A stretch of 44,575 nucleotides of DNA from Syntrophobacterales bacterium. GTDB taxonomy: Bacteria > Desulfobacterota > Syntrophia > Syntrophales > UBA2210. The translations under genes were made by a program, and so were the position numbers. The notes below the pieces were generated by a model that saw nothing but the letters and a program-made list of their open reading frames with translations, had not been told where the DNA came from and ran no database searches. Positions 135 to 840 of this stretch are shown piece by piece. The number at the start of each line of letters is the position of its first letter. Positions within the stretch are counted from its first letter, which is position 1. The stretch is taken from the NCBI GenBank assembly GCA_021163105.1, contig JAGGXJ010000154.1:1-44575 (forward strand), read 5' to 3'.

Positions 135-158
135 GGGGACAGGTTTAACCCTGTCCCC
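135..158. repeat. 9-bp palindrome covering the endonuclease V stop codon
   Basis: GGGGACAGG (135-143) and CCTGTCCCC (150-158) are perfect inverted arms around a 6-nt loop. The loop contains the minus-strand TAA of the endonuclease V frame. No T-run follows on either side, so it is a weak terminator candidate. It resembles the sequences at 12324-12422 and 15692-15707 in carrying a GGGACA/TGTCCC core at a gene 3' end. Confidence 0.6.
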
Positions 159-840
159 GATTCTTATCCAGCCTTATCTCATTAACGGCCAGGTGTGCCT
201 TCCTTGTGGGTTCGGGCAGTCTGTATCCTCTGCAGCAAGACAGGGTTATGTCTATAGCCTTTTTTAACCCTATTTTGTGTCCCTGTGACACGAAGACCGG
301 TTTCACATTCTTTTTTGTTATCAGAACTGCGCCCATTATTTCACCATTATGGACAAGTGGAGAAAAATCGCCCGGTTCGTTTCCTGTTTCATCATATGAC
401 CCGACCAGTCTCGTCTTTGCGCAACCTATGGAGGGTATGTTGAGAAACAGGCCCATATGAGATGCGAGACCGATACCCCTCGGATGAGAGATTCCATGCC
501 CGTCGAAGATAATAACGTCAGGGGGGGAGCTTAACTTTCGGAAGGCTTCCAGAAGTATTGGTCCTTCTCTGAATGTAAGCAAACCGGGGATATAGGGGAA
601 ATAGACTGTTTTGCTGAATGATACCTATTCGATAATTTCCATGGTTGGAAAATCAAGGATTACAACGACCGCGAAAAAGAGATTACTGTTTCTTGAATAG
701 GAAATATCGGCGCCGGCTATTGTTTTTATCTTGTCGGGGAGGTCTTTATCGTGAAGGATGAGTTTTGTCCTGAGTTCATTCTGTATCCCTCTGGCTCTGT
801 CATAGCTGACATTCCAGTTGTGCAGGTGTCTTATCTTCAT
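145..840 (-). pseudogene. nfi: Endonuclease V interrupted by an in-frame TAG
   Basis: Read straight through, this minus-strand frame encodes a full-length endonuclease V (deoxyinosine 3' endonuclease, about 231 sense codons). The family's acidic and aromatic active-site positions are all present: Asp45 in GADISYS, Tyr83 in FPYIPG, Glu92 in FREGP, Asp113 in DGHG and His119 just after. One TAG at 625-627 (codon 72) splits it. Flanking residues and spacing are as expected for the family, so no frameshift is involved. TAG is a genuine stop in several neighbours (mreB, recA, atpG, atpC), so recoding is unlikely. A nonsense mutation or a sequencing error is the simplest reading. The gene starts 15 nt after ribF ends and is probably co-transcribed with it. 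Confidence 0.85.

Follow-up and report, generated by a model that had tools for sequence, protein, structure and literature searches.

The window analyzed here, a stretch of 44,575 nucleotides that constitutes a whole contig (C78), contains an endonuclease V (nfi-type) gene at positions 145–840; it lies on the minus strand, which the preliminary description of this DNA did not specify. The frame is read from 840 to 145 and comprises 231 codons followed by a terminal stop at 147–145; translation reveals a single in-frame TAG, codon 72 (627–625, minus strand), by which the frame is broken. Directly upstream, also on the minus strand (856–1809), lies an ORF identified as ribF (bifunctional FAD synthase/riboflavin kinase) by recognition of its sequence rather than by a family search. 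A sequence search located a copy of the palindrome GGGGACAGGTTTAACCCTGTCCCC, an element dispersed in the genus, at positions 135–158, where it overlaps the 3′ end of the endonuclease V frame.

A single match to the Endonuclease_5 profile (PF04493) covers residues 22–216 of the frame, across the TAG, and profile positions 2–197 of 198 (E = 2.4e-74). The score of the window frame is 249.9 bits (249.7 in a repeat search) against a curated cut-off of 23.4 bits, and with the match being full-length, the assignment to endonuclease V is far beyond chance. In an alignment to Thermotoga maritima endonuclease V (E = 1.6e-54), both halves were aligned with no gap at the TAG, in agreement with the preliminary description of this DNA, according to which the two halves lie in the same frame with family-like spacing across positions 625–627. 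Window residues D45, E92, D113 and K142 pair with D43, E89, D110 and K139 of the T. maritima enzyme, which we take to be catalytic, the acidic ones being metal-binding. The PYIP wedge of the window frame (residues 82–85) pairs with P79–P82 of T. maritima, whose wedge is numbered 79–82 in the accessible text of PMC4650699. As can be seen, the frame shares with known endonucleases V (T. maritima, 2w35; E. coli nfi) the whole domain, with a score of the family, the RNase H-like acidic metal-binding residues and the PYIP wedge; it differs from them in that it is not one uninterrupted reading frame, due to the TAG at codon 72, and in having Ile rather than Arg at codon 174. The window copy is 82–87% identical to the intact copies of genus-mates.

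The part of the frame preceding the stop (628–840, minus strand) comprises 71 codons. Translation and alignments show that, of the aligned metal-binding acidic residues, it has D45 only (708–706); this is also the only aligned catalytic residue located 5′ of the TAG, the wedge, E92, D113 and K142 all being located 3′ of it. Since D45 alone precedes the stop, a 71-residue product would not be expected to form an active site. The longest ORF past the stop (145–582, minus strand; 145 amino acids) starts with a TTG at 582, beyond the PYIP wedge, and has neither the wedge nor D45. Just upstream of this ORF, nothing purine-rich that resembles a ribosome-binding site was seen.

The genus is represented in our collection by seven genomes (G000, the genome of the window, to G006), six of which have an endonuclease V match; ribF was located in all six genus-mates of G000 and served as a synteny anchor. 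The preliminary description had suggested that the position of the TAG be compared in close relatives. CAG (Gln) is present there in all five genus-mates keeping the gene, and CAA in G012, the next relative aligned outside the genus-mates in the codon comparison. One C-to-T change in CAG therefore suffices to produce the TAG. The column is variable among 30 relatives, with 18 Glu, 6 Gln, 2 Ala and one each of Asp, Val, Met and Ile (counts are of 30 loci, relatives without a locus being omitted). The gene was found in 45 of the 60 genomes searched, G000 included, and in 35 of the 46 near-complete ones, so its distribution in the order is patchy. Among these 60 genomes, G000 is the only one with an internal stop in the gene; none of the other 44 matching genomes has one. 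The window copy thus carries what is expected of a pseudogene, a frame-disrupting lesion at a position where relatives (five out of five genus-mates for CAG, 44 other genomes for a stop-free frame) have a sense codon. A pattern search of viral contigs retrieved no close relatives.

Within the genus, the gene is interrupted by a stop in one genome (G000), shortened by a 63-base in-frame deletion in another (G001), absent from a third (G002) and intact-looking in the remaining four (G003, G004, G005 and G006). The deletion in G001 (JAFDAR010000324.1; C97, L031/L104, 2126–2734) removes residues 22–42, just before the D45 strand, and splits the family match into two separate ones, 1–21 and 43–225. 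No endonuclease V match was found in G002, which is 93% complete. In this genome, ribF is directly followed by the sequence found downstream of the gene in sisters, with one palindrome, GGGGACAGATTTAAACCTGTCCCC, at the junction (L106, C128, 199–222), and the alignments to G006 and G001 overlap across the palindrome. Judging from these sequences, endonuclease V looks dispensable in the genus and repeatedly lost. According to the preliminary description, further inactivating changes in sisters would mark the window gene as a case of plain decay. This applies in part: G001 and G002 carry lesions, but each of its own kind and in a species of its own, and the gene looks intact in four sisters.

The palindrome GGGGACAGGTTTAAACCTGTCCCC, with its variants, is present in 2, 32, 4, 3, 0, 0 and 9 places in genomes G000 to G006, respectively, while a control pattern was present in 0. 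Possibly, it is of the REP type and mobilized by a transposase. The endonuclease V gene of G006 is preceded by a full copy and followed by one in which one arm is changed; in G001, the order is reversed, with the altered copy before the gene and the full one after. Since a deletion between flanking copies is predicted to leave one palindrome at the junction, as seen in G002, the loss of the gene from that genome could be explained by such a deletion. In the window, the palindrome contains or adjoins the terminal codons of the endonuclease V frame together with its stop (145–165). The C-terminal tails of endonuclease V vary between sisters, and palindrome insertion has probably rewritten the tail of the protein.

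The preliminary description considered all catalytic residues intact. This holds for D45, E92, D113, K142 and PYIP, all of which are aligned, but another strongly conserved residue, an Arg, is replaced by Ile at codon 174 (319–321, minus strand); out of 30 relatives, 29 have Arg and one has Lys at this position. The substitution may lend mild support to decay, although the count of such changes is not unusual among relatives: they deviate from 90%-conserved columns 0 to 6 times per sequence, and others among them equal or exceed the window copy in this respect. Selection was estimated as dN/dS from Nei–Gojobori counts, with the window copy compared to five sisters. The values for the window copy (0.15–0.23) are as low as those between sisters (0.16–0.24), and the region past the stop gave 0.13–0.20. 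Thus, the relaxation of selection expected of a pseudogene is not seen, and the stop either arose too recently for drift to be measurable or is spurious. It also follows that decay has to be argued from the stop itself, the substitution at codon 174 and the sister genomes.

The background frequency of internal stops was estimated by a filtered reciprocal comparison of G000 and its sister G005, with ORFs of one genome used as queries on the other. Internal stops in G000 were hit by 9 of 363 G005 ORFs, and stops in G005 by 9 of 358 G000 ORFs, with one further case resembling a frameshift. Upon inspection, four of the nine cases in G000 were clear (the endonuclease V TAG, a TAG in L199, and TGA codons in L182 and L166), one (a TAA in L177) was ambiguous, and the other four resembled start-site artefacts; in the reverse direction, about three to five of 358 were clear. 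Clear internal stops are thus present in about 1% of orthologous genes in G000, similar to G005. A Pfam match extends across the stop in endonuclease V and in the L166 ORF (VIT1), and in neither L182 nor L199. The L166 TGA (~4343, G000 C113) lies in a VIT1-family ORF where G005 has Trp and may be another young nonsense change or an error. Two other procedures were abandoned. An unfiltered comparison with G005, in which 46 of 432 and 52 of 425 ORFs met a stop, contained many ORFs evidently in a wrong frame and was replaced by the filtered one. A genome scan for TAG-interrupted genes using codon usage only missed the known endonuclease V case and mostly picked up neighbouring genes that share a frame; its stop counts alone were retained.

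These counts bear on the genetic code of the organism. Out of 471 confident ORFs (936634 of 2013084 bases), 118 end in TAG, 159 in TGA and 194 in TAA, and release factor 1 is present in G000 (545.9 bits). TAG is therefore an ordinary stop, as had been noted earlier from the neighbouring genes, and there is no withdrawal of TAG from termination of the kind that reassignment would entail. The search for pylS or an amber-suppressor tRNA, also suggested earlier, gave nothing in support of recoding. Five matches to pyrrolysyl-tRNA synthetase (TIGR02367) were found in G000, all below the cut-off (best 34.7 bits versus 178.15), and we take the ORFs of the three best ones to encode HisRS, LysRS and an EpmA-like protein. 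A CUA anticodon is absent from the 40 RF00005 matches, all of which were resolved by ARAGORN and which form an incomplete tRNA set (tRNA-Asn and tRNA-Ile(GAU) were not seen), and further stretches scanned by ARAGORN contained no CUA tRNA either. With the set incomplete, a suppressor tRNA could be encoded on a missing contig. A supE-type second tRNA-Gln was also considered, and tRNA-Gln(UUG) was the only one seen in G000; it is likewise the only tRNA-Gln among the resolved tRNAs of G005, which make up part of its 48 matches. Both genomes have a tRNA-Sec, that of G000 with a UCA anticodon at C61:12661–12753 (L153, L183), and since this tRNA is present, the lineage probably makes selenoproteins. 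Counting in favor of recoding, besides this tRNA-Sec, some marine Deltaproteobacteria combine pyrrolysine and selenocysteine (accessible part of PMC8318568). The window gene resembles their pyrrolysine-recoded genes in having an in-frame TAG. It differs from them in that its protein is not a methylamine methyltransferase and in the lack of PylS and CUA tRNA among the sequences found in the genome. With release factor 1 in place, TAG in ordinary use, a tRNA-Sec reading UCA and PylS matches that are sub-cut-off and in their three best cases resemble other proteins, we regard recoding of the TAG, be it by pyrrolysine, by selenocysteine with a CUA tRNA or by an amber-suppressor tRNA, as extremely improbable.

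Of the three options offered by the preliminary description, a recent nonsense mutation and a sequence error survive, whereas suppression or readthrough, with no PylS above the cut-off, no CUA tRNA found in the incomplete set and release factor 1 present, is left without support. We consider it most likely that a nonsense mutation has recently arisen in an endonuclease V gene that is dispensable and prone to loss, a reading that we favor without being certain of it. According to this reading, a single C-to-T change would have converted the CAG of Gln-72 into TAG in an ordinary non-essential endonuclease V gene. Translation would end after 71 residues, short of the DNA wedge and of all metal-binding acidic residues except one, so an active enzyme would not be expected. 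As the remainder of the frame is without drift, the mutation would have to have arisen very recently or to be still segregating in the population. A stop would also fit repeated loss of the gene in the genus, where one sister has an in-frame deletion and another lacks the whole gene, apparently via deletion between flanking dispersed palindromes. Counting against decay, four of the seven genus genomes retain an intact-looking gene, and dN/dS is unrelaxed.

The main rival, which ranks next and which we consider possible though clearly less probable than a young nonsense mutation, is a consensus or assembly error in this metagenome-assembled genome, the gene being functional in the cells, with a sense codon at this position. 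A single base would explain the TAG, the rest of the frame is normally constrained, and the TAG is ~625 bases from the end of a contig in a genome of 154 contigs; moreover, as stated in the accessible part of PMC11017572, many internal-stop pseudogenes of bacterial assemblies are assembly errors. Arguing against an error are the frequency of internal stops, which is not clearly higher in G000 (4 of 363 clear) than in G005 (about 3–5 of 358), the fact that sister genomes have this gene damaged in other ways, and the second unusual residue of the window copy, R174I, even though this too may be an error. Functional readthrough, or a CAG/TAG toggle in the population with low-level suppression by a near-cognate Gln tRNA providing a low dose of endonuclease V, would agree with the low dN/dS before and after the stop and with the many residues tolerated in column 72. 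CAG/TAG in-frame stops with dN/dS below 1 do exist, Paenibacillus being an example, and frequent readthrough has been argued for many of them (Belinky et al. 2021; accessible part of PMC7918605). The window gene is similar to these in having TAG versus CAG and purifying selection around the stop and differs from them in that its TAG is common to no other genome searched. With 44 of 44 other matching genomes having no stop in the gene, with no suppressor tRNA found in the incomplete tRNA set of G000, and with such stops being short-lived, on a timescale of polymorphism within populations (same part of PMC7918605), readthrough or toggling appears improbable. That the TAG is a real, tolerated CAG/TAG polymorphism which lowers the dose of endonuclease V through near-cognate tRNA-Gln readthrough is, if anything, slightly less probable still. 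If true, such a polymorphism would let inosine repair be turned down reversibly, in a genus where the alternative is complete loss of the gene.

The one-step change from CAG to TAG, the lack of other drift and the differing lesions in sisters are shared by the window gene with young bacterial pseudogenes that have a single nonsense codon, and no feature distinguishing it from them was found. An open-access search for literature on nonsense alleles of bacterial endonuclease V gave none among the matches listed, which is no proof of absence. The case is an ordinary one. The amber codon should not be read as a sign of an altered genetic code, and the consequence is mainly for annotation: what the window holds is probably a young pseudogene, or else an error of the consensus. 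If the favored reading of a young nonsense mutation is correct, three different kinds of loss in one genus, including one whose deletion point carries a dispersed palindrome, would provide a small example of the turnover of a dispensable repair gene.
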